From Tetraselmis striata (lineage: Eukaryota; Chlorophyta; Chlorodendrophyceae; Chlorodendrales; Chlorodendraceae): a DNA stretch of 64,000 nucleotides. The DNA is taken from NCBI GenBank assembly GCA_006384855.1, contig VCJN01002087.1, positions 1 to 64,000 on the forward strand, in the 5' to 3' direction. Below, one piece after another: positions 5,712 to 61,597 of the stretch (position 1 is its first letter; every line of letters starts with the position of its first letter). Position numbers and translations under genes: made by a program. Under the pieces are notes generated by a model. That model was not told where the DNA came from. It did not search any database and saw only the letters and a list, made by a program, of their open reading frames with translations.

Positions 5712-6275
5712 GTGTCTACGTTCCTGCGCCACATAGTGCGGAAAAATCGGCGCGAGTGGTGGCGGACTAGGGCGAACGGGCGCGTGTTGCGGTGGATACG
5801 GGAGGGCATGCTGGTGCCGTTCACCCCCCCCCCCCCCCCCCCCCCCTTCCAACGCGCGGAGTCTCCTTACAAGACATTACGCACGCGCAGCTCGTCCGGT
5901 GATGGATGACCGGGGAGAGATCGAGACTAGTCCGAGTTGGCGCCCTATTTTCTTGTCCTTCGTTTCATGTCGCTACGTGTCCGCGAGTTTTTCTAGTTTC
6001 GAAGCCGGGCATCAACAATTGGCGCCTTGTAATCGATATGCGCAAGCTCAACCTTTACTGCGCGGTCTACATCATGCGGTTTGAGACGCTCCGGCGCTTG
6101 AGGTACCCAACGTGTCGGGGCGACTGGACGTCGCTTATGATGACCTACATGACGGCTGCTACGCCATGGGGATGAGGGAGGAGGTCCGAGACAATTTCTC
6201 GATCTACGTTCGCGGCACCCTCTTGTGACTCACCGCGCTCCCCGTGGGTTGGCCCGCCTCTGCGACAGTCTCGGC
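5712..6275 (+). mobile_element. DIRS-type retrotransposon fragment (RT N-terminal half)
   Basis: The fragment shows the pre-RT stretch typical of DIRS-group elements (LRWIREGMLVPF, followed by prolines), then the RT entry motif FLVSKPGINNWRLVIDMRKL near 5985-6050, which matches VPKPGTNKWRLIIDLREL in the element at 6.6-11.5 kb. Further RT-like sequence continues to about 6275. The fragment is broken in a few places and lacks RNase H, recombinase and termini. A 23-C tract lies inside it at 5824-5846. It is an old fossil piece in the opposite orientation to the neighbouring YR element. Confidence 0.7.
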
Positions 6276-6549
6276 AGTTGAGACACAAGAACAAAGGTGT
6301 TGTGCAGTGGCGGTGCAAAAACGGGGGGCTTCATTGTTTTAGAATACAAATATATTGGTTGCAAGGTTGTCACCACCCGCTGTTATAAATACCTATTCCT
6401 AGTGTCGGCACTGGTCGACAGACCATGCCGACCTATAGCAGCATGTCACTGCAGAGCGTCACCGCGGAGAGTCGAACAGAAGACATAACGTCAGCCTTGT
6501 CATTGTATGGCATTATACGATATACATCTGAAACTGGCAAGTACTGAGG

Positions 6550-6551
<2 letters not shown>

Positions 6552-6620
<69 letters not shown>
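6552..6620. repeat. (CA)n microsatellite
   Basis: About 34 uninterrupted CA units, directly at the left edge of the YR retrotransposon. Confidence 0.95.
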
Positions 6621-6625
<5 letters not shown>

Positions 6626-6729
6626 CTGTTTGCCAAAGAATGTCAGTTCGCTTACATTGAAGGCTAAGACAAGAACCACAGGCTTGGCATGTGTCTCTTA
6701 GCGCAGAAACATGGCTGAGGGTGGGTTGT

Positions 6730-6902
6730 TGCGCGAGCCGGTTGAGGCGAGCGCAAAGCAGAGAGTGCCGGTGCCCGAGGGTGGCTCAGGTCGTGGTGCC
6801 GGTGCGGGCCGGCATGCTTTAGTCCTTGCGCCGAGCGCGGGGGTCGTGCGATGTACAACATAGCTAATGTATTGTAAACCTCTAGATGATTACATCTAAC
6901 CA
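6730..6902. repeat. Left (3'-side) direct repeat of the YR retrotransposon
   Basis: Matches 11331-11512 in direct orientation, from GCGCGAGCCGGTT to ACATCT--CCA, with scattered differences. Confidence 0.85.
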
Positions 6903-6943
6903 ATGTTTGCCACAGACGAAAGCCAAAGGCTAGAACAGGTAGC

Positions 6944-8270
6944 TTAGTCCAGCGGCCGGACGGGAACGAGCCAGCCGAAGAACCGCCATGCCGCGGGAGT
7001 CGGATGCATGGTCATCGAGTCGATGTACTTCCCTGTAACCACGTCGTTGTTCTTCGACCAATCGCTCATGTGTTTGATGGCCGGCAAGGGGACGTCGACG
7101 CAGCTTGCTGCGGAGGCCGCGCCCTTGCGCAAACTGTGCGATGTCCACTTGAAACCGGGGGGCGGTGGGGCGCCCGCCGCCAGGTAGGCGTCCCGCAACC
7201 ACTCGGTGAGAGTGGTTGAAGATGTCCAAGTGGCGGAAGGCTCAAGCGGGGAGACGCTCCAGAACTTGGGCGGCGGGCTGGCGCCGTAGAAACGGCGGCC
7301 GTAGGGGTCGCGACTGGTGGTGTACCAGTCAAGCAGGTCAAGCGAGGTCCGGAACGTCGGCGACGGGCATGTCTAGCAAGGGCTTAGCGGAAACCCTAGT
7401 ACGAATGCACGATGGTCGCCTTTCTGCTTGCGGACGTACAACAGAATGCTCCCGGATGGCCGGTCGACCACCAAATCATCGGTCTCGCAGCTAATTTCGG
7501 ACTTTGCGCGGCATACGAAGACGTAGTACGACGTGATCGTCGCGGGCGCGGCTCTGACGGCGCGGATGTCCGCGATGTATATTAGCGGATTCCCACACCA
7601 ATGTGCGCCGAAGTAGTTTAATCGCGGTGCCATGATGTCAGCCGCAACGGGCGCGGGCATGGCGACGCGTACTCCTCCGCCAGTCGCTTGTGCTGGATGG
7701 CCAGGCCGCGGCGCGCGTCGGCCACCATTTCGCCGAGGGCGACATGATGACGCGGGTGATCGCGGAATTGTTTGTTGATGGATGAGTAGTACCGCTGAAG
7801 GGACTCCGTCCGCGCCGATGATACCTTGCAGGCCCAGCCAGGCAATGTAGAGGACGATCGTGCTGGTAGTATCCCGCAGCGGGCGTAAGCCTTCCCTGCT
7901 CGCAAAACGTAGCGAAAGAGCGCATGCCGCTGTCGTAGTTGCGATAGGTGCCGGCAGCCAGCGAACCCGTAAGCATCCCGAGCGATGCTTGACCAATTTC
8001 GTCGGTCCCCAACAAGCCCTGGAGCTCGGCCGCCATCTTTGCCGTCCAAGACGTTCCCGAGTTGGGGCGTACGGCAAGCCGGTAGCACGCTCAGTGCGCG
8101 TGGGACATGCGCCCCGGGTACTGTACACCGTAATGCAGCGACGGCCGAATGGCTAGGGACCGGCCTAGCGACCCGCGGCGGAGGTGCAGCCAGGCCCGCG
8201 TGGCAGGCGAAAGGCCACGACGCTCCAGCCGGGCGGTCCGATCCCCACGCACGTTCCCCGCCGTCCAAGA
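6944..8270 (-). pseudogene. YR region (tyrosine recombinase) of the 6.6-11.5 kb element
   Basis: The C-terminal catalytic block shows the H-x-x-R signature TSHSLRKGAASAA followed by a candidate catalytic tyrosine in GKYIDSMT, as in YR retrotransposon recombinases. The N-terminal part is recognisable to about 8.2 kb but disturbed. It would act in integration of a circular DNA intermediate. It resembles the recombinases of the two compact elements at 54.6-61.1 kb. Fossil, broken. Confidence 0.75.
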
Positions 8271-8489
8271 AAGAAGAGGTCGCGGATCGGCGGGTAGACG
8301 ATCGTCTCGGTGGCGAGGTCTCGTAGCAACTGGTACCAACGTCGTCCTGGCCACTGCAGCGCGATTACCATGGCAGCCGCGCCCGACTATCGCAGTTTGT
8401 CCGCCAAATCGTCCAACAATGTTCACGGGGGATTGCAATAATTGCGTTCCCTGCGCCACAGTTCGTCCCGCAAATGAAGAAAATCCACC

Positions 8490-9990
8490 GCTTAGCATCG
8501 TGGGTCGCGCCAGCGGGAATTGTACCGTGGAAGTTGCTCGTTTTCCATCGCCGCAAATATGTCAATGGTGTGGGGACCCCACAAACGATGGAAGTACGCG
8601 AATATCCGCGAATTGAGCTGCTTGCCAGTCGGCGTCGTCCAGCTCCCTACTGAGCCGGTCCGCCCAAACGTTGGCCGCGGACTGGATGGAGATGTGGTGG
8701 ATGTCCAGGAGGTGCCATAGCTCGCGGGGCTCCTCCATCCCGAGTTCATGACCCGCGCCCGAGAGGTACGGTTGGTCAACGCTGCCACAACGGCCGTTTT
8801 GTCCTCGTGCAGCAAGACGCACCGTCCTCGGAGCTGCGGCAAGAGCGATTCGACCGCGTGACGTACCGCGTAAAGCTCTTTCCACGTGATGTGATGCGCG
8901 GTCGTCCTCGTACCACAAACCGCGCGCCGGGTAAGCGATGTTGTTGTTCGGCACAGCGCTCCCTCCATACGAGCTTGAGTTCGCGTATAGATACGCGGTC
9001 TCCACCGGCTTGTACATACAGCGACCGTCGTTGTCCTACGCAAGTACACATGTCCACCATTTCTATATCGCGGCGTAGCTGGTTCGTCATCTTGACGCGC
9101 CCGCCCCAGCCCGGCCGGGTTGCGAGGACGCAGTGCAGCTCTCGCAAGAAGAAGCGGGCCGGCGCAATTGCCTAGTACAGAAACTGATCCTTTCCCGCAA
9201 AAGACGCCAGCTGCCGGGCCGGGAGCCATCGCCTATCGGAGGTTGCGCGGCCCGGGGGAGAGCGGGAGGCTTTGGCCTGCGCGATGACCTTCTCCTCGGG
9301 GGCGCAGAACTCTCCGCGCTGCGGGTCGACGATAAGCCCTAAGTGAGGGCCGACTTGGGTGGGCTCCCATACTCCCTTGTTGGGGAAGCCGAGACGGTCC
9401 AGCATGGTGTCCAACTGGACGCGCAACTCCAGGGATTCTTCGCGGGAGTCCGCGAAGAAATGAAAGTCGTCCATGTAGGATACGAGCCGATAGCCCCGCC
9501 AGCAAGTGTTGCGCATGAAACGACGAGTAGGCTTGGACGGCGGGGCCGTGGGAGGTGACGATGGCTGGCCCGCTCCGCTTTAGGGGCGTCCGCATGTACT
9601 GTCCGTAAAGGCCGTTGTCAACTTGCAGAAGTAGTACGGCGAGCTTGTCCAACCCATCGGTAGGCACGCCAACCGCCACAACTCCCCCCGGTACTTCATC
9701 GGTGAAAAAGTCGCGGTCCTCCTCCCAGATCCCGAGGGCGTAGTAGCCATCGGCAAGGTCCATCGAAACGAACCAGTCGCATGCGCGCGCCAGGTGCCGC
9801 ATGTGCTTGAGCGTCTCGTAGGACATCTTAAGGGTCTTGCACCACTTGTTGAGCTCCCGTAGATCGATGATGAGGCGCCACTTATTGGTGCCGGGCTTGG
9901 GGACTAGAAATATTCCGGATACCCTCTTGTCGCAGCGTCCTAGCTCCCACGCGCCAATAGCCTCGAAGGGGGGTAGTTTCGTAGCCATGA
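8490..9990 (-). pseudogene. RT and RNase H region of the 6.6-11.5 kb element
   Basis: The RT entry motif VPKPGTNKWRLIIDLREL, the palm stretch FVSMDLADGYYALGI, the catalytic YMDDF box (about 9475) and the downstream GPHLGLIVD block are visible in the order expected for DIRS-group RT. RNase H-like sequence lies towards 8.5-9.1 kb, ending in the ADRLSREL block typical of these elements. Fossil, broken. Confidence 0.8.
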
Positions 9991-10211
9991 AGTCCAGTTA
10001 TGCTTGAGTGGCGTCGCGCATAGAGACGCCGGGGTTGTAGGCGGGCGAGGGCGTTGTCCGTTTTTTGAAGCGGATCCGGACTCCTTGGCGGATCTAGCTT
10101 AAGACTTGTCCGCTCGCCCCGATGCTCTCCCAGTCGCGCCATCTTCTCCGCACGCGGTGTCGCATGTAAAGGGAGGTAGGCGTACATGAGTCGGCGCGGC
10201 GGGCCACACCG

Positions 10212-11284
10212 TCATTTGGTGACCTTGGCCTTGGCCTTGTCGGCTGCTGCGACCGTCGCCGCGGCCTTCCGCGCTGCTGCGGCTTGCTCGCGTTGCTTGC
10301 GCCGCTCGGTGGACTCGGTGGGGGCGGGCTTGTCGGGGGTGGTCTTGGCGAACACGGCCGCGGCACGGGCCTTGCCCGCTGCAAAGAGGTTGATCTCGAG
10401 GGCGGTCTTGTCGTCGAACGCTCGGCGGAGTTGGTCGAGTTGTCCGGACACGGCGATGCGTCTTGGGGTGCATAACTTGGCGTGGGCGAGCTCGGCGAAG
10501 ACTCGGTCCGCTTCCGTAGCCGTCAGTCCGTTCTGCTTGGCGAGCTGGAGGTAGCCCAACTGGGAACGGGTGGCCTCCGCCGTCGCCAAGTGGGTGCGGT
10601 AGCAGGCTCGGAGCTCGGCAATGGCCGCAGCCTTGCTTTTCGCTGTAGCAGACTCGGTCGAAAGCGACTCCATAGCGCCGCGCATCGCCTCGTTGGCGAG
10701 GCTACTGAATAAGGCATAGCAACCTAGATGTAGTTACTCGTTTTACGCTGTGTGACTCCGCTTCTCCGTGAGGCCGCGGGCGGTGTCGTCGGTCAGGGTC
10801 CACATGCGAGGCTCGTCGACGTCGCGCGGGGGTCGCTCCAGACCGCGGGGGGGGGGGGGGGGGGGGGGGGCGCGAATCGGCCGTAGTAGGCAAAGTCGAC
10901 GTACTCGAGCTCGTTGTCGGGTGCGTCTAGCTCAGCATGAAGGGGCTCTCGCGCTTCTTGCTCACCACCCTCGGGCGCAGGCGCGCCCGTGGGGTTGGCT
11001 GGCTAGGTGCCTTCGGGAGGAGGCGGGTTAGGGAGGGTGGGGGCGAGTCGAGCGAGCAAGGCAACCGTAGCAGCCTTGAACAGCCCGGCCAACCGCTTCT
11101 CCAGGGCTTCCGCTTGGGCCGTCAGGCGTTTTTCCAACTCCGCTACATATACCGCTGCGGCTCCGCCCGGGGCGCCGCGGACTGGGGCGGCGTCTTCCGG
11201 TACATGGCCAGGGGGCATCATGTTGTCGCGGGGTGGGGAAGGTGTAGCGTCTCGGGAGGCTGAGGCTCGGGTCCGAGTCGGCAT
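10212..11284 (-). pseudogene. Gag-like region of the 6.6-11.5 kb element
   Basis: Two Ala/Lys/Glu-rich helical stretches read on the minus strand upstream of the RT, where a gag-type protein is expected: about 157 residues at 10685-10212 and about 93 residues at 11284-11003. A 24-G tract lies between them at 10847-10870. The call rests on position and composition only; no diagnostic motif is visible. Confidence 0.45.
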
Positions 11285-11330
11285 AGAGTAAGCCGATACT
11301 CTGCTCGACCGCTAGAGTCGACACTGCTAG

Positions 11331-11512
11331 TGCGCGAGCCGGTTTAGGCGAGCGCAAAGCAAGGAGTGCCGGTGCCCGACGGTGGATCCCTCAGGTCGTG
11401 GTGCTAGTGCGGGCCGGCAGGTCTTAGACCGTGCGCCGACCGCGGGGGTCGTGCGCAATACGACAAAATAGCTATTGTACTGTATAAACCTCTAGATGAC
11501 TACATCTGGCCA
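11331..11512. repeat. Right (5'-side) direct repeat of the YR retrotransposon
   Basis: Partner of 6730-6902 in the same orientation. Confidence 0.85.
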
Positions 11513-11669
11513 TATATTTGGAATTGCGCTCCATTGCCAGTATTGTGGCATCTCGTCCCCACACATTTACCAGCTTTGCTATCTCTTCATTTAGCTGTGG
11601 ATCTGCCCGGTCGGTGTTTCCCGCCTCGCCGCCTAACGGCGGGTTGCGCGGAACCCGCCCGGCCGAAGT

Positions 11670-28638: not shown

Positions 28639-28684
28639 TGAGCCTTAATCCCCGGGCTATTGTGTCGTATTCGCAAATGCTAAT

Positions 28685-31600
28685 ACACCCCTGCACATAA
28701 GTTTGGGGTCCCTTTTCGGCAGTCTCAAGACTTCACAAGTCTAGGGTACCTGAACGTAGGGTATATGAGATGAAACCCTGGAATCTCAGAGGGCTTTATT
28801 AAACCTGCATGACGAGTGGCTCAAACCGAAACTTAATGACCTTTGACTAGGGAATCACGCTGCACCTGGTGCGTGGATGGGCGTCGCCTGCAACTGCACC
28901 AAAACCGGGGTCGGTATCACGCACACGCCGACGCGCGTGAATAGACAACCAAACGGCGGGATGGCCATGAACGCGTGAGGAAACACATTGGCGAGGGGCT
29001 CGGGTGCATTTGGTTGGGGTGCAGCCGTGTGGGCGGCGGCCAGTGCATGTCGCGTTGCGATACTGGCATGGCATCAGTGTCGGCCACGCGCAGCAACACC
29101 CCCTTGGCTTCAAAACGCTATAACTTCTCAGGGTTTGCTCAGAAAAACTTTTTAAAAATATCACGCGATTCCTCGTTCAATTCTGCGTCGGGAACACTCT
29201 TTCATAACCACAAAATCGATTTTTTGGGTCTCCGGAAAAAATCCCCAAAGATGATCATCCAAGTTGCCCCTCACTGCCTCATGTGCCCACCCATATCGGG
29301 CGCGTGGCTTTGCGCCAAGTGCGTGTCTAAGCCCCATACTCAGTTGGGCGAGAGCGTTATGTATGTGGATGACCACGGACCACCAACACTTGGCATGTGC
29401 CACCTCCTAGCGATACACACATCTACCAGCCAAAATGCCATTTTCCACAGCATTTTTCAAGGAATTTCATATTAATCAAAATCCACGCCCCTACCGCGCC
29501 ACCCCGCCCACGAAAGGGTGCAACTGGCATTCCACCACGCGCCCCCATGGTAGAGCATTGCCCTACGCCAAGGGGGCCATCGAGCGCCTCTCCTACGTGC
29601 GTTCGCCACAGAAACAGCAGCATTTTCACCCCAAAACTGCTCCCCACAGTGGCCAACTTGACGTTGGGGTGTCACGTCGTGCCTATAGCGACATGCTTTC
29701 AGTGGCCTACACGCACGGTGTGTGCAACTTATGCCAAGGGCCGTATCCACCGAGTTTGGTGCGACGAGTGCCGCTATTTCCATAGGTTTAGACGGTTGGC
29801 GCAACCCACAACTTTCTGGCGCCAACGCACCATGCAATGATTTCGCGTTTTTGAAAGGGCGCCCACAAATGGTCGTGTTGTCGCGCGGGTGGGTATAAAG
29901 CGCACAATAGGCGTTCGCCCGAACTATTCCCACTGTAGTTAGCATGTATGCACATGCAGCCGGCGTGATCCTCGCCCATGCATGCGCTTTGCGATCGAAA
30001 ATGCAAAACCCGGACTTATGTGGAGGGGTGTGCGCCGCACCAAGCGCGCTCGACGAGGTCGCAATAAGGCGTCTTGGGACAGTGAGCCCTTTCGAGCCCG
30101 TGGCTCGCATGTGGATGCATCATGGGCATATGCAGCCAGTAGGAGCATTGGGGTGATTCAAACATGCCGCGTCGGCCGTATATGGCCGAATGACATATGG
30201 CCAACACACCCCTGCACATAAGTTTGGGGTCCCTTTTCGGCAGTCTCAAGACTTCACAAGTCTAGGGTACCTGAACGTAGGGTATATGAGATGAAACCCT
30301 GGAATCTCAGAGGGCTTTATTAAACCTGCATGACGAGTGGCTCAAACCGAAACTTAATGACCTTTGACTAGGGAATCACGCTGCACCTGGTGCGTGGATG
30401 GGCGTCGCCTGCAACTGCACCAAAACCGGGGTCGGTATCACGCACACGCCGACGCGCGTGAATAGACAACCAAACGGCGGGATGGCCATGAACGCGTGAG
30501 GAAACACATTGGCGAGGGGCTCGGGTGCATTTGGTTGGGGTGCAGCCGTGTGGGCGGCGGCCAGTGCATGTCGCGTTGCGATACTGGCATGGCATCAGTG
30601 TCGGCCACGCGCAGCAACACCCCCTTGGCTTCAAAACGCTATAACTTCTCAGGGTTTGCTCAGAAAAACTTTTTAAAAATATCACGCGATTCCTCGTTCA
30701 ATTCTGCGTCGGGAACACTCTTTCATAACCACAAAATCGATTTTTTGGGTCTCCGGAAAAAATCCCCAAAGATGATCATCCAAGTTGCCCCTCACTGCCT
30801 CATGTGCCCACCCATATCGGGCGCGTGGCTTTGCGCCAAGTGCGTGTCTAAGCCCCATACTCAGTTGGGCGAGAGCGTTATGTATGTGGATGACCACGGA
30901 CCACCAACACTTGGCATGTGCCACCTCCTAGCGATACACACATCTACCAGCCAAAATGCCATTTTCCACAGCATTTTTCAAGGAATTTCATATTAATCAA
31001 AATCCACGCCCCTACCGCGCCACCCCGCCCACGAAAGGGTGCAACTGGCATTCCACCACGCGCCCCCATGGTAGAGCATTGCCCTACGCCAAGGGGGCCA
31101 TCGAGCGCCTCTCCTACGTGCGTTCGCCACAGAAACAGCAGCATTTTCACCCCAAAACTGCTCCCCACAGTGGCCAACTTGACGTTGGGGTGTCACGTCG
31201 TGCCTATAGCGACATGCTTTCAGTGGCCTACACGCACGGTGTGTGCAACTTATGCCAAGGGCCGTATCCACCGAGTTTGGTGCGACGAGTGCCGCTATTT
31301 CCATAGGTTTAGACGGTTGGCGCAACCCACAACTTTCTGGCGCCAACGCACCATGCAATGATTTCGCGTTTTTGAAAGGGCGCCCACAAATGGTCGTGTT
31401 GTCGCGCGGGTGGGTATAAAGCGCACAATAGGCGTTCGCCCGAACTATTCCCACTGTAGTTAGCATGTATGCACATGCAGCCGGCGTGATCCTCGCCCAT
31501 GCATGCGCTTTGCGATCGAAAATGCAAAACCCGGACTTATGTGGAGGGGTGTGCGCCGCACCAAGCGCGCTCGACGAGGTCGCAATAAGGCGTCTTGGGA

Positions 31601-33073
31601 CAGTGAGCCCTTTCGAGCCCGTGGCTCGCATGTGGATGCATCATGGGCATATGCAGCCAGTAGGAGCATTGGGGTGATTCAAACATGCCGCGTCGGCCGT
31701 ATATGGCCGAATGACATATGGCCAACACACCCCTGCACATAAGTTTGGGGTCCCTTTTCGGCAGTCTCAAGACTTCACAAGTCTAGGGTACCTGAACGTA
31801 GGGTATATGAGATGAAACCCTGGAATCTCAGAGGGCTTTATTAAACCTGCATGACGAGTGGCTCAAACCGAAACTTAATGACCTTTGACTAGGGAATCAC
31901 GCTGCACCTGGTGCGTGGATGGGCGTCGCCTGCAACTGCACCAAAACCGGGGTCGGTATCACGCACACGCCGACGCGCGTGAATAGACAACCAAACGGCG
32001 GGATGGCCATGAACGCGTGAGGAAACACATTGGCGAGGGGCTCGGGTGCATTTGGTTGGGGTGCAGCCGTGTGGGCGGCGGCCAGTGCATGTCGCGTTGC
32101 GATACTGGCATGGCATCAGTGTCGGCCACGCGCAGCAACACCCCCTTGGCTTCAAAACGCTATAACTTCTCAGGGTTTGCTCAGAAAAACTTTTTAAAAA
32201 TATCACGCGATTCCTCGTTCAATTCTGCGTCGGGAACACTCTTTCATAACCACAAAATCGATTTTTTGGGTCTCCGGAAAAAATCCCCAAAGATGATCAT
32301 CCAAGTTGCCCCTCACTGCCTCATGTGCCCACCCATATCGGGCGCGTGGCTTTGCGCCAAGTGCGTGTCTAAGCCCCATACTCAGTTGGGCGAGAGCGTT
32401 ATGTATGTGGATGACCACGGACCACCAACACTTGGCATGTGCCACCTCCTAGCGATACACACATCTACCAGCCAAAATGCCATTTTCCACAGCATTTTTC
32501 AAGGAATTTCATATTAATCAAAATCCACGCCCCTACCGCGCCACCCCGCCCACGAAAGGGTGCAACTGGCATTCCACCACGCGCCCCCATGGTAGAGCAT
32601 TGCCCTACGCCAAGGGGGCCATCGAGCGCCTCTCCTACGTGCGTTCGCCACAGAAACAGCAGCATTTTCACCCCAAAACTGCTCCCCACAGTGGCCAACT
32701 TGACGTTGGGGTGTCACGTCGTGCCTATAGCGACATGCTTTCAGTGGCCTACACGCACGGTGTGTGCAACTTATGCCAAGGGCCGTATCCACCGAGTTTG
32801 GTGCGACGAGTGCCGCTATTTCCATAGGTTTAGACGGTTGGCGCAACCCACAACTTTCTGGCGCCAACGCACCATGCAATGATTTCGCGTTTTTGAAAGG
32901 GCGCCCACAAATGGTCGTGTTGTCGCGCGGGTGGGTATAAAGCGCACAATAGGCGTTCGCCCGAACTATTCCCACTGTAGTTAGCATGTATGCACATGCA
33001 GCCGGCGTGATCCTCGCCCATGCATGCGCTTTGCGATCGAAAATGCAAAACCCGGACTTATGTGGAGGGGTGT
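28685..33073. repeat. Tandem array of a 1,521-bp unit, 2.9 copies
   Basis: Copies run 28685-30205, 30206-31726 and 31727-33073 (the last cut after 1,347 bp). I found no difference between copies by eye, and the frames they contain translate identically. Each unit holds overlapping frames on both strands (plus strand 166 residues at 28975-29475 and 147 at 29397-29840; minus strand 212 at 30110-29472). None is recognised, and their recurrence follows from the DNA identity. A TATA-like GGGTATAAAG (29891-29900) stands about 45 bp before an ATG at 29944 opening a 70-residue frame. No terminal inverted repeats are seen at the unit ends. The third copy ends abruptly in unrelated sequence at 33074. 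Confidence 0.95.
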
Positions 33074-54309: not shown

Positions 54310-54961
54310 TACGTAGTACAGTAATCCTATACCCTCATCAAGCCCTCGGCTTTTGATGAAAGCCCTGATGTAATTAAAAAAAGCCCTCGGCAAAGCCGGC
54401 TTTGGTCGACTACCTGTACGGCCGGCGGACTACACAGGTGGAAATCAAAGTATTCGAATACAATGTATTGCCCCGGCGGAGGGTCAAGAGTCCACCATTT
54501 CATCGCTACCAGAGTACCAGTACCGGGTACCTACTGCAACAAAAATGACAAAGCGATAAAACTACCCGTACTGCGAGTTTCAAAGTTGAGTCTGGTTTTG
54601 CCAAAAAGGTCGCGCAGGCTGTTTTACATGGTCAAGAGCCGAAATTGGCAGGAAGGTTTAGCGAAAAGCGTGGAGGGAAAACGGAGTCAGGGGGGGCGCT
54701 GCGTGGAACGCAGCGAAAACTGGAAGATGGCAGGCTCAGCTGTTCTGGCTGCTTTTATGTCTACTCGTGCTGCACCCAACAAGGGCGCAACAACAGTTAC
54801 TAGTTCCCGTACCACTGCGCAGCACTTGTAGCTGAAAAGCGGTTAGGTCAAGGATGGAAACCCCATAAACTAGTTTAGATCATTTCAAAGTTGAGTCTGG
54901 TTTTGCCAGTCTTGAGCGAACGTAGAGAGCGGTGGATTGACGGAGAAGGGGTAGCGCCAAG

Positions 54962-56587
54962 TCATGAAGGAGGCACTGGGAAGGCCACCGCTGCGGAGTC
55001 CTGTTGGACTTGGAAGTGGCGGAGGGGGGCGATGTGTCCAAAGAAGAACCACGCGCCAGGAGAAGGAAGAACGTTGGGGTCGATGTAGTCTAGAACGACA
55101 TCGGAGTTAGTGGCCCAACCGCCTTGGTAGCGGATGTGGGACAGTGGCGCTCCGATGGCGTTTGCTGCAGAGGCTGCGCCCTTACGTAGACTGTGTGAAG
55201 TCCAGGAAGTGCCAGCAGGAGGGGCAGCGTTGACTAGGTTGACCGCTGTAGACAACCAGTCTGACATCGTAGCCGCAGTCCAAGGTTTTGACTGCTCAGC
55301 CACATTGACAGCCCAGAAGTTGGAGGCAGCCAAGCCAACAGTAACCAGGGGGACAGACTGGACGTTGTCGATGAAGTAGCGCAAGAGTCGTGCCACTCGA
55401 GGGTGCTCGGACACTGGAAGGAGAAGTACGCGCAGGTCGTCGGGTCCCCGACGGCCAGCGCGACCCTTCTCGCGGTAGATCTGCAAGGTGATGTTGTAGG
55501 TGTCGACATGCACATCTTGCGCTCGACAGGAGACGCCAGTAAGACCCCTGGCAAAGAACAGGAAGTTGACAACCGAGGCCAAGAGGGCTCGGTAGTCGAG
55601 GTGGGACTCTGGGTAAGGAGCAGACACAATTAGCTCGGCCTTTGAGACGAAGCGGTAAGCTACATCCGCAGGCAGAGGGACACGCAAGGGGGCAGCGTCC
55701 AGTCGGCGCTGCCGCAACATTAACCCACGCCTTGCCGAAGTGAGGTGTAGGCTGTCCTTGGCGATCGGGACGAGGTTGTGCAGCTCGAAGAAGGTGTTGA
55801 TGGCAGACAGGTAGGGCTGCAGCGACTTAGCTGCGATGTGCCCTCGCTCACCGATCCAGGCAACGTACCGAACAACAGTAGCAGTAGTCGCCTCTAGCGG
55901 GCTGATGTTCTCGGAGTCGTGGCAGAACTCAGCGAACTGAGACAGTCTGCCGGCGTAGCTCTTGAGGGTCTGAGCGCTGAGGGAGCTGGAGAGCAGGTCG
56001 AGCGTCCGCTGGCCTAGCTCGTCTGAGCCGAACGCGTCCTGTAGTCGGGATCGCAGTGACGCAGCCCACGGAGCGATAGCTGCGGGCTCGTCGATTACGT
56101 AAGTGCGTCGTTTTACTGACAGAGTGCCACCGGCACGGCCACTGTTCGCAAAGTACTCGGCAGCAGCGGTTAGGTTCCCGGCGGTTGGCCGGTAGTTGCT
56201 GGACGGGTTTGCAGTAGCTTCAGTACGGGTTTGCGGGGCTAGGTTCAGGTAGGAGGGCCGCCCCGCGCGCCCTTCGCGCTCGTAGCGCCTGTCCCGTGCG
56301 TAACGTACACGCGCGAAACTTGGTAGTTGCGAACCGGTTGTAACTCGTAGTGTAACAACCGACGAACGCAAAGATGGGGTTGTACGAAAGGCGGATGGTT
56401 GAGCCGCCATGTGCAGGTGTGCGGATGGTTGAGCCGCACTCGGCTGTAGCTGTAAGAAGCGCCGCACCGAGGAAGGTCTAAATGAAGTCTGTAAGGTGGG
56501 GGGGTCAGGTCCTGACACAGGGCGCTCATCCCGCCGTTGAGCTCCAAGGGTGCGTCTTGCGGCGGTCACCGAAAGGTGGCCTCGCAA
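54962..56587 (-). CDS. Tyrosine recombinase of compact YR element, copy A
   Basis: 541 residues, open throughout. The first ~170 residues are Arg/Ser/Pro-rich without a known domain. A SAM-like N-terminal recombinase domain follows (SQFAEFCHDSENISPLEATT, YVAWIGERGHIAAKSLQPYL), then the catalytic domain: the first Arg in FLFFARGLTGVS, H-x-x-R in TSHSLRKGAASAA and a candidate nucleophile Tyr in DVVLDYIDPNV. The protein would cut and rejoin DNA to integrate a circular intermediate. It closely resembles the recombinase remnant at 6944-8270. The gag-like frame lies 36 bp upstream. The start codon is not certain because the N-terminal segment is unlike other recombinases. Confidence 0.8.
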   Translation of the reverse strand: MRGHLSVTAARRTLGAQRRDERPVSGPDPPTLQTSFRPSSVRRFLQLQPSAAQPSAHLHMAAQPSAFRTTPSLRSSVVTLRVTTGSQLPSFARVRYARDRRYEREGRAGRPSYLNLAPQTRTEATANPSSNYRPTAGNLTAAAEYFANSGRAGGTLSVKRRTYVIDEPAAIAPWAASLRSRLQDAFGSDELGQRTLDLLSSSLSAQTLKSYAGRLSQFAEFCHDSENISPLEATTATVVRYVAWIGERGHIAAKSLQPYLSAINTFFELHNLVPIAKDSLHLTSARRGLMLRQRRLDAAPLRVPLPADVAYRFVSKAELIVSAPYPESHLDYRALLASVVNFLFFARGLTGVSCRAQDVHVDTYNITLQIYREKGRAGRRGPDDLRVLLLPVSEHPRVARLLRYFIDNVQSVPLVTVGLAASNFWAVNVAEQSKPWTAATMSDWLSTAVNLVNAAPPAGTSWTSHSLRKGAASAANAIGAPLSHIRYQGGWATNSDVVLDYIDPNVLPSPGAWFFFGHIAPLRHFQVQQDSAAVAFPVPPS

Positions 56588-56623
56588 GGCTCCTGCAGCT
56601 CCGACGAACGGCGCCCCACACCG

Positions 56624-57532
56624 TCACTCGTGCTCACCTTCGCGGCCACGTCCACGTCCGCCGCCACGTCCTCGCCCACGCCCGCGACCTGCAACTGCAG
56701 CCGCCACTCGAGAAGTAGCGGTTGCCTTGGCGCTGCTGGCAACGGTCGCCTCGAAGACACGACGCTCGTAGTCCCGCATGAGGTCCCCAAAAATCGCGGA
56801 ACCCAGATGCTCCGAAGCAGGCTGAAAATGCTGGGCTCGCAGCACGTCCAGAACACCTTGGTCACCGTGCACACGCTTGATCTCATTGAGCTTCCGTAGG
56901 AAGGCCAAACGAAACCGAAACGCCTTGTCGATGGCCTCGGCGTGGTTCCGGGCTCTCGCGAGGTAGGGGGTGAAGTCCTGGTTGCTGGTAGGGACGTAGG
57001 GCAATAGCTCGTCGAGCGCCACGAAAAGGGCGGCCATGTGAGCCCCGAAACACGACATCCACAAGTACTCCTCCTGGGCCGGCAGACGCCGGTCATCCTG
57101 CTTGAGGTACTCGTTCGTTAGGTCGGTGCTCAAAGGGAAAAGTCCAGGCACTCGGCTGACCGGTCGAACGGCCTCGTAACCAGACTCTGCTCTCTGCAGT
57201 AGCTCTGGCACCGCGAGGTAATCATCCTCGGCACTCACGGATTTTGCTCCGACACGGCCGCTCTGGGCTAGCTCTAGCAAGTCGGGGCGCTCTGCGGCTC
57301 CCCCGCTGCCTGTCGGCTGTCTCGCGAAACGCTGCCCTGAGCCGGAGCCATGTGCCCCTTCTCCATCAACAACGCGATCACGAACCGTCAATTGTGCCAC
57401 GGCTGTAGCCAGCTCTCGCAGTAATGAAGACTGGGCCCTCATATCTGCGTTCAGCGACTGCAACGTCGGCTCAGCGACGGGTTCTTCTCCATCTGACATA
57501 GTAACGCACGGACGTACGGACGAGAATATCAC
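56624..57532 (-). CDS. Gag-like protein of compact YR element, copy A
   Basis: 302 residues. An N-terminal helical region (LNADMRAQSSLLRELATAVA) is followed by a helical middle with ARARNHAEAIDKAFRFRLAF and a C-terminal Gly-Arg tail (RGRGRGRGGGRGRGR) of the kind that binds RNA. Position upstream of the recombinase and the basic tail suggest a gag-like nucleic-acid-binding role; no zinc knuckle is visible. The start may be the second Met (MSDGEEPVAE), about eleven residues further in. Confidence 0.65.
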   Translation of the reverse strand: MIFSSVRPCVTMSDGEEPVAEPTLQSLNADMRAQSSLLRELATAVAQLTVRDRVVDGEGAHGSGSGQRFARQPTGSGGAAERPDLLELAQSGRVGAKSVSAEDDYLAVPELLQRAESGYEAVRPVSRVPGLFPLSTDLTNEYLKQDDRRLPAQEEYLWMSCFGAHMAALFVALDELLPYVPTSNQDFTPYLARARNHAEAIDKAFRFRLAFLRKLNEIKRVHGDQGVLDVLRAQHFQPASEHLGSAIFGDLMRDYERRVFEATVASSAKATATSRVAAAVAGRGRGRGRGGGRGRGREGEHE

Positions 57533-57798
57533 ACTCGGGTGGCGAGCCGGGTGTGGTCTTGAACAACCTGGGGTGACCTTGCTCGCAACGGGTTACGAGA
57601 CAGTTTTTACATCGCTGCGTGGAACGCAGCGAAAACTGGAAGATGGCAGGCTCAGCTGTTCTGGCTGCTTTTATGTCTACTCGTGCTGCACCCAACAAGG
57701 GCGCAACAACAGTTACTAGTTCCCGTACCACTGCGCAGCACTTGTAGCTGAAAAGCGGTTAGGTCAAGGATGGAAACCCCATAAACTAGTTTAGATCA

Positions 57799-57889
57799 AA
57801 ATATTATTCAAAGCTTGCGGTCGAGAGTAGGAGTGGCAACCGTCAAATGGATAACTGCACGACCTGCAATATGTCAAGCGTACTACGTA
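57799..57889. other. 91-bp spacer between the two compact YR elements
   Basis: Unique sequence separates copies A and B, so they are two insertions or a tandem duplication including flank, not one element sharing a terminal repeat. Confidence 0.7.
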
Positions 57890-58311
57890 TTTCAAAGTTG
57901 AGTCTGGTTTTGCCAAAAAGGTCGCGCAGGCTCTTTTACACGGTCAAGAGCCGAAATTGGCAGGATGGTTTAGCGAAAGCGTGGAGGGAAAACGGAGTCA
58001 GGGGGGGCGCTGCGTGGAACGCAGCGAAAACTGGAAGATGGCAGGCTCAGCTGTTCTGGCTGCTTTTATGTCTACTCGTGCGGCACCCAACAAGGGCGAA
58101 ACAACAGTTACTAGTTCCCGTACCACTGAGCAGCACTTGTAGCTAAAAAGCGGTTAGGTCAAGGATGGAAACCCCATAAACTAGTTTAGATCATTTCAAA
58201 GTTGAGTCTGGTTTTGCCAGTCTTGAGCGAACGTAGAGAGCGGTAGATTGACGGAGAAGGGGTAGCGCCAAGTCATGAAGGAGGCACTGGGAAGGCCACC
58301 GCTGCGGAGTC

Positions 58312-59891
58312 CTATTGGACTTGGAAGCGGCGGAGGGGGGCGATGTGTCCAAAGAAGAACCACGCGCCAGGAGAAGGAAGAACGTTGGGGTCGATGTAGT
58401 CCAGAACGACATCAGAGTTCGTGGCCCAACCGCCTTGGTAGCGGATGTGGGACAGCGGCGCTCCGATGGCGTTTGCTGCAGTGGCTGCGCCCTTGCGTAG
58501 ACTGTGTGAAGTCCAGGAAGTGCCAGCAGGAGGGGCAGCGTTGACTAGGTTGACTGATGTAGACAACCAGTCTGACATCGTAGCCGCAGTCCAAGGTTTT
58601 GACTGCTCAGCCACATTGACAGCCCAGAAGTTGGAGGCAGCCAAGCCAACAGTAACCAGGGGGACATACCGTACGTTGTCGATGAAGTGGTGCAAGAGAC
58701 ATACCACTCGAGGGTGCTCGGACACTGGAAGGAGAAGTACGCGCAGGTCGTCGGGTCCCCGTCGGCCAGCGCGACCCTTCTCGCGGTAGATCTGCAAGGT
58801 GATGTTGTAGGTGTCGACATGCACATGTTGCACTCGACAGGAGACGCCAGTAAGGCCCCTGGCAAAGAACAGGAAGTTGACGACCGAGGCCAAGAGGGCT
58901 CGGTAGTCGAGGTGGGACTCTGGGTAAGGAGCAGACACAATTAGCTCGGCCTTTGAGACGAAGCGGTAAGCTACATCCGCAGGCAGAGGGACACGCAAAG
59001 GGGCAGCGTCCAGTCGGCGCTGACGCAACATTAACCCACGCAAGTGAGGTGTAGGCTGTCCTTGGCGATCGGGACGAGGTTGTGCAACTCGAAGATGGTG
59101 TTGATGGCAGACAGGTAGGGCTGCAGCGATTTAGCTGCGATGTGTCCTCGCTCCCCGATCCAGGCAACGTACCGTACAACAGTAGCAGTAGTCCCTTCTA
59201 GCGGGCTGATGTTCTCGGAGTCGTTGCAGAACTCAGCGAACTGAGACAACCTGCCGGCGTAGCTCTTGAGGGTCTGAGCGCTGAGGGAGCTGGAGAGCAG
59301 GTCGAGCGTCCGCTGGCCTAGCTCGTCTGAGCCGAACGCGTCCTGCAGTCGAGATCGCAGTGACGCAGCCCATGGAGCGATAGCTGCGGGCTCGTCAATT
59401 ACGTAAGTGCGTCGTTTTACTGACAGAGTTCCACCGGCACGGCTACTGTTCGCAAAGTACTCGGCAGCAACGGTTAGGTTCCCGGCGGTTGGCCGGTAGT
59501 TGCTGGACGGGTTTGCAGTAGTTCCAGTACGGGTTTGCGGGGCTAGGTTCAGATAAGAGGGCCGCCCCGCGCGCCCTTCGCGCTCGTAGCGCCTGTCCCG
59601 TGCGTAACGTACACGCGCGAAACTTGGTCGTTGCTAACCGGTTGTAACACGTAGTGTAACAACCGACGAACGCGGAGATGAGGTTGTAAGAAAGGCGGAT
59701 GGTTGAGCCGCCATGTGCAGGCGTGCGGATGGTTGAGCCGCACTCGGCTGTAGCTGTAAGAAGCGCCGTACCGAGGAAGGTCTAAATGAAGTCTGTAAGG
59801 TGGGGGGGTCAGGTCCTGACACAGGGCGCTCATCCCGCCGTTGAGCTGCAAGGGTGCGTCTTGCGGCGGTCACCGAAAGGTGGCCTCGCAA
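58312..59891 (-). pseudogene. Recombinase region of compact YR element, copy B
   Basis: Same domains as copy A, including TSHSLRKGAATAA and VLDYIDPNVL, but not a single open frame. Fossil. Confidence 0.8.
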
Positions 59892-59927
59892 GGCTCCTGC
59901 AGCTCCGACGAGCGGCGCCCCACGCCG

Positions 59928-61034
59928 TCACTCGTGCTCACCTTCGCGGCCACGTCCACGTCCGCCGCCACGCCCTCGCCCACGCCCGCGTCCTGCAGCT
60001 GCAGCCGCTACTCGAGAAGTAGCGGTCGCCTTGGCGCTGCTGGCAACGGTCGCCTCGAAGACACGACGCTCGTAGTCTCTCATGAGGTCCCCAAAAATCG
60101 CAGAACCCAGATGCTCCGAAGCAGGCTGAAAATGCTGAGCTCGCAGCACGTCCAGAACACCTTGGTCACCGTGCACACGCTTGATCTCATTCAGCTTCCG
60201 CAGGAAGGCTAGACGAAAACGAAACGCCTTGTCGATGGCCTCGGCGTGATTCCGAGCTCTCGCGAGGTAGGGGGTGAAGTCCTGGTTAGTGGCGGGGACG
60301 TAAGGTAGCAGCTCGTCGAGCGCCACGAAAAGGGCGGCCATGTGGGCCCCGAAATACGACATCCACAAGTACTCCTCCTAGGCCGGCAGACGCCGGTCAT
60401 CCTGCTTGAGGTACTCGTTCGTTAGGTCGGTGCTCAAAGGGAAAAGTCCAGGCACTCGGCTGACCGGTCGAACGGCCTCGTAACCAGACTCTGCTCTCTG
60501 CAGTAGCTCTGGCACCGCGAGGTAATCATCCTCGGCACTCACGGATTTTGCTCCGACACGGCCGCTCTGGGCTAGCTCTAGCAAGTCGGGGCGCTCTGCG
60601 GCTCCCCCGTTGCCTGTCGGCTGTCCCGCGAAGCGCTGCCCTGAGCCGGAGCCATGTGCCCCTTCTCCATCAACAACGCGATCACGAGCCGTCAATTGTG
60701 CCACAGCTGTAGCCAGCTCTCGCAGTAATGAAGACTGGGCCCTCATATCTGCGTTCAGCGACTCCAACGTCGGCTCAGCGACGGGTTCTTCTCCATCTGG
60801 CATGGTAACGCACGGACGACGGACGAGAATATCACACTCGGGTGGCGAGCCGGGTGTGGTCTTGAACAACCTGGGGTGACCTTGCTCGCAACGGGTAACG
60901 AGACAGTTTTTACATCGCTGCGTGGAACGCAGCGAAAACTGGAAGATGGCAGGCTCAGCTGTTCTGGCTGCTTTTATGTCTACTCGTGCGGCACCCAACA
61001 AGGGCGCAACAACAGTTACTAGTTCCCGTACCAC
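59928..61034 (-). pseudogene. Gag-like region of compact YR element, copy B
   Basis: Same layout and Gly-Arg tail as copy A, but broken. Fossil. Confidence 0.75.
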
Positions 61035-61149
61035 TGAGCAGCACTTGTAGCTAAAAAGCGGTTAGGTCAAGGATGGAAACCCCACAAACTAGTTTAGATC
61101 ATTACGATAAAAATAGCGACTATAATACTACAGCAGCCCACATAAGTCT

Positions 61150-61479: not shown

Positions 61480-61597
61480 CATAACATTTCGACGTTTTAT
61501 TAGATTGGGCTGCAAATTTGTGCGATGGAAAGCCCGTTACCTGCGCTTTCCAACGCACTAATTTCAGCCCAATCTGATAAAACGCCGAAATGTTATG
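61480..61597. repeat. 118-bp near-perfect hairpin (palindromic element)
   Basis: The arm 61480-61532 (CATAACATTTCG...GATGGAAAG) pairs with 61546-61597 (CTTTCC...CGAAATGTTATG): about 52 pairs with four mismatches or wobbles and one single-base bulge around a 13-nt loop. The 5' TTTAATT flank has no recognisable target duplication. It could be a palindromic MITE or a hairpin RNA precursor. Confidence 0.85.

Follow-up and report, generated by a model that had tools for sequence, protein, structure and literature searches.

Two head-to-tail elements with split direct repeats

The 64,000-nucleotide stretch of Tetraselmis striata contig VCJN01002087.1 analyzed here (the window) contains two elements that carry a gag-like gene and a tyrosine recombinase (YR) gene, and no reverse transcriptase (RT); we refer to their relatives in the genome as the short family. 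They lie head-to-tail on the minus strand with a gap of 91 bp between them, are 96.3% identical over 3.23 kb, and are separate insertions. This is what the original prediction had described, namely two head-to-tail elements of ~3.2 kb with split repeats and only gag-like and YR regions; of the repeat sizes it gave, 186 bp was reproduced, and the 25-bp repeat measured 26 bp. In the coding direction each element reads A1 (186 bp), gag, YR, B1 (26 bp), A2 (186 bp), 93 bp, and B2 (26 bp). Split direct repeats (A1...B1-A2-B2) are present as in PAT/Ngaro-like YR retrotransposons, for which the order A1-ORFs-B1-A2-B2 is described (PMC8547959), with the 93-bp spacer parting A2 from B2.

Element 1 (54578–57798, minus strand, 3221 bp) is a complete RT-less YR element, and copies elsewhere have the same ends and other flanks. 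Its termini in the coding direction are TGATCTAAACTA...TCAACTTTGAAA. The A1 (57613–57798) and A2 (54697–54882) repeats, each of 186 bp, are 100% identical; the 26-bp B1 (54883–54908) is the same as B2 at the outer end (54578–54603), and the 93-bp spacer between A2 and B2 occupies 54604–54696. The gag-like gene (56624–57499) is an open frame of 291 amino acids with an Arg-Gly-rich end, running from an ATG at 57499 to a TGA at 56626–56624. The YR frame (54965–56623, 553 amino acids) follows directly after the TGA in the same frame, and the TGA CGG at this boundary (56621–56626), in frame with both genes, is a predicted readthrough site. All these features are on the minus strand, as are those of element 2 (57890–61101), which has the same layout with broken gag and YR frames. 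Its repeats are A1 at 60916–61101, A2 at 58008–58193, B1 at 58194–58219, and an identical B2 at the outer end (57890–57915); its long repeats align at 98.9% identity (58008–58195 with 60916–61103).

The YR of element 1 matched the Pfam integrase SAM-like domain (SAM_1, 6.8e-8), with Phage_integrase at 0.0015, below the cut-off, and Cre gave a weak alignment to the HxxR-W-Y stretch at its end (E 0.007). The protein appears to bear the tyrosine recombinase set R, HxxR, H/W, Y; the putative catalytic residues R359, H477, R480, W503, and Y513 were kept in 21–22 of the 22 and 29–30 of the 30 rows of two alignments. The gag-like frame had no Pfam match. Its product was 32% identical over 87 amino acids to the gag part of P0242 (BLASTP 8e-6), a protein from another source with both gag and YR, whose YR shares 40% identity with the short-family YR. 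Compared by hhalign with a profile of P0242 and two gags of an RT-bearing family of the same genome (described below), the short gag gave an E of 2.4e-4 and a probability of 44%; the E value was 0.0012 with P0242 alone, and 0.1 (probability 0.6%) with the two RT-family gags alone. The assignment also leans on the position of the gene and on its RG-rich tail.

No RT or RNase H frame was found in elements 1 and 2 among the open frames or with Pfam, and a tblastn search of element 1 for remnants, with the RT and RNase H of relatives, gave a best E of 0.41. No methyltransferase was found in the short-family elements.

Copies of the short family and the place where an RT would sit

The genome searched was the 224-Mb assembly of 2903 contigs. 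A 29-base word of the A repeat had 1483 exact matches and its reversed control none; the gag-end word was found 1097 times, the YR-start word 1150 times, and the A1-leader word 622 times. If all 1097 gag-end copies were full length, the short family would make up about 1.6% of the assembly. Because of the A-word count and its empty control, and because copies on other contigs have differing flanks, chance or a misassembly, which the original prediction had named as an alternative, is an unlikely origin of the pair.

Two samples of copies were compared, both of equal length by choice: 30 copies made up of the best full-length matches to element 1 plus element 2, and 20 copies taken in contig order from A pairs 2850–2960 bp apart (C45 was skipped, as its element runs off the contig). 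In an end-to-end comparison of 31 copies (29 fetched loci, the best matches to element 1, and both window elements), the two ends were alike in 30 and one copy was truncated, with differing flanks; L034, which has a truncated B end, entered neither the alignment nor the flank counts. Counted from stop to stop, the frames of 322 and 553 codons were both open in 27 of the 31, the exceptions being L015, L034, L035, and element 2. The contig-order copies were 88.6–98.2% identical to element 1, and three of the 20 (L041, L042, and L058) combined the 553-codon YR frame with a gag frame no shorter than 302 codons. From this difference between best matches and contig-order copies, most of the family is decayed, and one recent subfamily has stayed largely intact. 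The short family is real, abundant, recently active, and RT-less, and extends far beyond this locus.

In protein searches, among the best 120 of 351 (YR) and the best 120 of 309 matches (gag), 119 of each 120 carried the JGI label Tetstr1/TSEL, which we take to mean the chlorophyte T. striata, with many YR matches 95–99% identical. The non-Tetstr1 proteins among the best 120 of each search were P0002 and P0225, from a metagenome contig, and no relatives in viral contigs were confirmed. Further head-to-tail short-family neighbours, ~0.4–0.7 kb apart, were seen at G000:C1680:97952–104801 and G000:C165:15607–22423; insertion near existing copies may be favoured.

The distance between the two genes was read at 91 gag ends, those among the first 100 listed whose contigs the YR-start list also included. 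The YR start lay 143–176 nt past the gag end in 64 of them and at 177–12,000 nt, where an RT would sit, in none; the other 27, without an exact YR-start word within 12 kb, are uninformative. The short gag-YR layout that the original prediction had proposed as a real class is borne out by these distances, with no gag-RT-YR version among the copies that could be tested, and the majority of copies with an RT between gag and YR, which would have spoken for deletion derivatives, was not seen. Its term "non-autonomous" also fits.

A-word distances were measured at the 64 gag ends on contigs as far as C186, the range of the A list. A downstream A word within 12 kb was present in 41, at 1899–1957 nt in 38 and at 1189, 7586, and 10,540 nt in the others; at the last two the gag-YR gap was normal (176 and 146 nt). 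An upstream A word was likewise present in 41, at 965–1034 nt in 40 and at 9067 nt in one, where the distance to the other A word was normal. Among adjacent same-strand A words less than 15 kb apart, 37 of 44 spacings were 2876–2949 bp (74 of the 100 listed A places). The remaining seven were 968, 2017, 5764, 8812, 10,980, 11,537, and 14,506 bp. Those of 968, 5764, and 14,506 bp fall between elements; at 8812, 10,980, and 11,537 bp (C29, C110, and C135) a gag-end or YR-start word had the usual spacing to one A word, and by their word positions these wide pairs look like ordinary elements that lack the other exact word.

These distances bear on the idea that an autonomous partner with the same repeats and an RT exists, and is rare, divergent, or unassembled. 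There is room for such a partner, as the first 100 places per pattern were examined, no exact YR-start word was present within 12 kb for 27 of the 91 gag ends, and the RT matches compared (150 of 152 listed) came from one RT lineage. Even so, an RT-sized gap occurred at none of the 64 informative gag ends, the three wide A pairs of 8.8–11.5 kb read as ordinary elements, and no listed RT match lay between paired A repeats in contigs C2–C186, compared by eye. We judge such a partner to be quite unlikely. P0081 was tried as an RT-bearing version and rejected, since on reading the sequence its RT looks as if it belongs to an adjacent Ty3/gypsy-type gene that the gene model fused to it.

Selection on gag and YR and the TGA CGG boundary

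Variants present in at least three of the 20 contig-order copies were mostly synonymous in both genes: 64 synonymous and 23 nonsynonymous in gag (per-site nonsynonymous to synonymous ratio, N/S, 0.12), and 110 and 35 in YR (N/S 0.11). Wrong-frame controls gave 1.24 (gag) and 1.47 (YR), and singleton variants 0.61 (gag) and 0.51 (YR), closer to neutral and still not 1. This strong bias of the shared variants to synonymous sites indicates that purifying selection kept gag and YR while the family spread.

Such maintenance is more than passive deletion derivatives would need. Loss of RT and RNase H by deletion is common in non-autonomous retroelements, and the short family could be the deletion product of one RT-bearing parent, passively amplified in trans. 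The gene model P0090 (67 member sequences), which is without part of YR, fits this explanation, as does the finding that both genes were full length in just three of the 20 contig-order copies, so that broken copies may move. However, passive mobilization would not maintain the predominance of synonymous variants in both genes, the copies tested included no parent bearing these repeats, and the short-family YR is 34–40% identical to the YRs of three RT-type relatives. A recent deletion derivative is thus at odds with the data, and we judge this origin to be quite unlikely. The short lineage is distinct and probably old.

The boundary between the genes is conserved. An in-frame TGA CGG lay between gag and YR in all 51 copies read (49 by motif and two in the sequence itself), and in 22 of 22 and 30 of 30 rows of the two alignments, which have two rows in common. 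Over the first 162 nt after the TGA, N/S was 0.19 in the gag-YR frame (nine synonymous and four nonsynonymous changes), against 1.86 and 3.98 in the other frames; over the next 162 nt it was 0.47, against 1.25 and 0.66, the frames being less distinct there. The first ATG of the YR frame in element 1 is codon 72, and 46 of 50 aligned copies had no in-frame ATG ahead of that codon, with an earlier one in the other four.

UGA followed by CGG or CUA is a recognized leaky context (type II readthrough), and gammaretroviruses make Gag-Pol by readthrough (PMC11166343). The gag-YR boundary has this UGA with CGG. The conserved TGA CGG, the in-frame constraint after it, and the lack of an early ATG in 46 of the 50 copies together suggest that low-level readthrough of the TGA probably yields a Gag-YR fusion, by a logic like that of gammaretroviral Gag-Pol. 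Gene models that cross from gag into another frame (e.g., P0001) look wrong at that point, as that frame is unconserved after the TGA (N/S 1.86).

Possible signs of reverse transcription and a candidate helper family

The Ngaro/PAT model of reverse transcription has A1 equal to A2 and B1 equal to B2 at insertion (PMC6681497). Within the 30 similarity-ranked copies, A1 and A2 of the same element differed at six positions in all, whereas permuted pairings gave a mean of 19.1 and a minimum of 8 (5000 permutations). The 20 contig-order copies had 104 differences, gaps counted (permuted mean 200.8, minimum 155), most of them from a few old copies (L055, L056, and L052), and at the common polymorphic sites 28, 84, 86, and 103 of the A repeat, A1 equalled A2 in 20 of 20. 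A1 and A2 thus evolve in concert, with the same lineage-specific alleles in each element, as the reverse-transcription model predicts. The concerted A repeats are an indirect sign that the short family may be replicated through RNA.

No target-site duplication was found in 30 copies beyond a mismatched control, as expected for YR elements; the ends are sharp, and the insertion sites slightly favoured T or A ahead of the element and a pyrimidine behind it. Of the element windows scanned for folding, the lowest z (−4.3, 60 shuffles) was at 121–220 of the element (~57579–57678 of the window), at the inner end of A1. This is the site of the hairpin CGCTGCGTTCCACGCAGCG at the end of A, a possible packaging or priming signal.

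An alternative is a purely DNA-based explanation, in which the YR cuts out and integrates a DNA circle as in Cryptons, with no RNA step, the gag-like protein is otherwise employed, and gene conversion keeps the A repeats alike. Cryptons are DNA transposons that use a YR (PMC3212892), and the short family likewise has no RT and inserts without target duplication. In addition, four A1-leader junctions stand in a row, 2916–2923 bp apart, on one contig (G000:C348:1650–10439) and could be an integrated multimer; they are apparently tandem 2.92-kb units with one A repeat each, arisen perhaps from a multimeric circle or by unequal exchange. Nevertheless, YR retrotransposons are characterized by split direct repeats and gag (PMC8547959, PMC4157794), gag is strongly selected and resembles the gag part of P0242, and A1 and A2 covary in each element. 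A DNA circle with both repeats would not by itself match A1 to A2, although gene conversion could. We regard a DNA transposon as unlikely.

A possible source of RT lies in the same genome. The window holds a decayed gag-RT-RNase H-YR element with split repeats (6730–11520, minus strand; 190-bp repeats 83.7% identical; RVT_1 weak, below the cut-off), a relative of L039 and L040. A search with its RT, and so built on one RT lineage, gave 152 matches, and an 849-amino acid frame was open in 44 of the 150 listed. L040 reads A1-gag-RT/RNase H-YR-B1-A2-spacer-B2 (A 181 bp, B ~28–32 bp, spacer ~91 bp), and its RT contains a frame change; in L039, which has the same repeats, a single 849-codon frame spans RT and RNase H. 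The short lineage shares its genome with this RT-bearing family, which has many near-identical copies. The YRs of the two families are 36–40% identical, and both families have a B that starts TGGCAAA and a B-A junction AAATG[G/A]TC. This abundant family is a candidate RT helper. The original prediction had looked for a helper among relatives of the 6.6–11.5 kb element; the relatives proved abundant and RT-bearing, many with a long RT frame, and the window element itself is decayed. Selection on the two genes, the concerted A repeats, and the frame shared across TGA CGG go beyond that prediction. In L039, a second, inverted, partial piece of the RT-bearing element (1–2226, 5996–6716) adjoins the full one, with an inverted-repeat stretch at 1486–2226. 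Elsewhere in the window we observed an imperfect palindrome of ~120 bp (61480–61597), 380 bp beyond element 2, and three head-to-tail copies of a ~1521-bp unit at 99.9% identity (28679–33073).

The reading we favour, as fairly probable, is a retrotransposon family with a Gag-like protein and a probable Gag-YR and without RT or RNase H, with RT supplied in trans. Occasional readthrough of the TGA, in its TGA CGG context, would give the Gag-YR fusion, and the element RNA would be packaged in a particle of its own Gag along with Gag-YR. The RT and RNase H would be borrowed from the co-resident RT-bearing split-repeat family, on circularization A2 would serve to restore A1 and the inner B to restore the outer one, and the element's own YR would integrate the product. 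With a similar degree of confidence, we see a satellite-like lineage that has kept the shell and integration functions and given up copying.

Several points weigh against this. Apart from the short motifs in B and where B meets A, the two families have unrelated repeats, and the appearance of concerted evolution could also come from gene conversion between A1 and A2. The gag-like gene was assigned from a modest match to P0242 and from profile comparisons with a probability of 44% at best and 0.6% without P0242, and a gag fold was not predicted (AlphaFold2, mean predicted local distance difference test score 42). The readthrough signal consists of context and of coding constraint with small counts (nine versus four in the first 162 nt), and no significant stem-loop, a feature of many type II cases, was found after the TGA (z −0.73, 300 shuffles). 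Many copies are broken, so broken copies may move too, and we infer reverse transcription, particles, and the supply of RT from sequences alone.

Among known systems, the short family is like the PAT, Ngaro, and TOC3-like elements (order DIRS) in its split repeats, its gag-like gene upstream of YR, its HxxR and Tyr, and its insertion without target duplication. It differs from them in that no RT, RNase H, or methyltransferase was found, in the single frame that gag and YR share on either side of TGA CGG, and in its 93-bp A2-B2 spacer. PAT elements without a zinc-finger gag could be termed Toc3-like (PMC4157794). The short family shares with the RT-bearing family (L039, L040, and the window element at 6730–11520) its anatomy, a related YR, possibly a related gag, and the motifs TGGCAAA and AAATG[G/A]TC, whereas that family has RT and RNase H, otherwise unrelated repeats, and a YR only 36–40% identical. 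The TR-GAG long terminal repeat (LTR) retrotransposons of plants are also non-autonomous, with gag kept and RT absent; unlike the short family, they have LTRs in place of split repeats and are not known to carry a recombinase or integrase of their own. In the non-autonomous retroelements known to us, either everything is lost or gag alone is left. With Cryptons the short family has in common that it is a YR-encoding eukaryotic element without RT; to our knowledge, Cryptons have no gag. The short family differs from them in its gag-like gene under selection and its split repeats, Cryptons being without long direct repeats (PMC3212892).

No earlier RT-less class with gag and YR appeared in the literature by titles and abstract beginnings, with subscription papers and Repbase outside this scope, so that an earlier description is possible; no paper joining Tetraselmis, retrotransposon, and DIRS was found in the literature searched. 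The chances seem to us evenly balanced that the short family represents a satellite class, one in which RT and RNase H are gone for good while selection preserves the element's Gag and YR, and which brings Gag-YR into the particle and takes its RT from a distant family. If so, RT would be a tradable function among YR elements. A gag-like gene and an integration gene are retained here in a family of about a thousand copies, with selection demonstrable on both, which makes it a testable case of RT supply in trans across families with unrelated repeats. The finding is relevant to how RT-bearing and RT-less YR elements (DIRS and Crypton) arise from each other, and Tetraselmis, a cultured alga, gains an abundant young mobile family.

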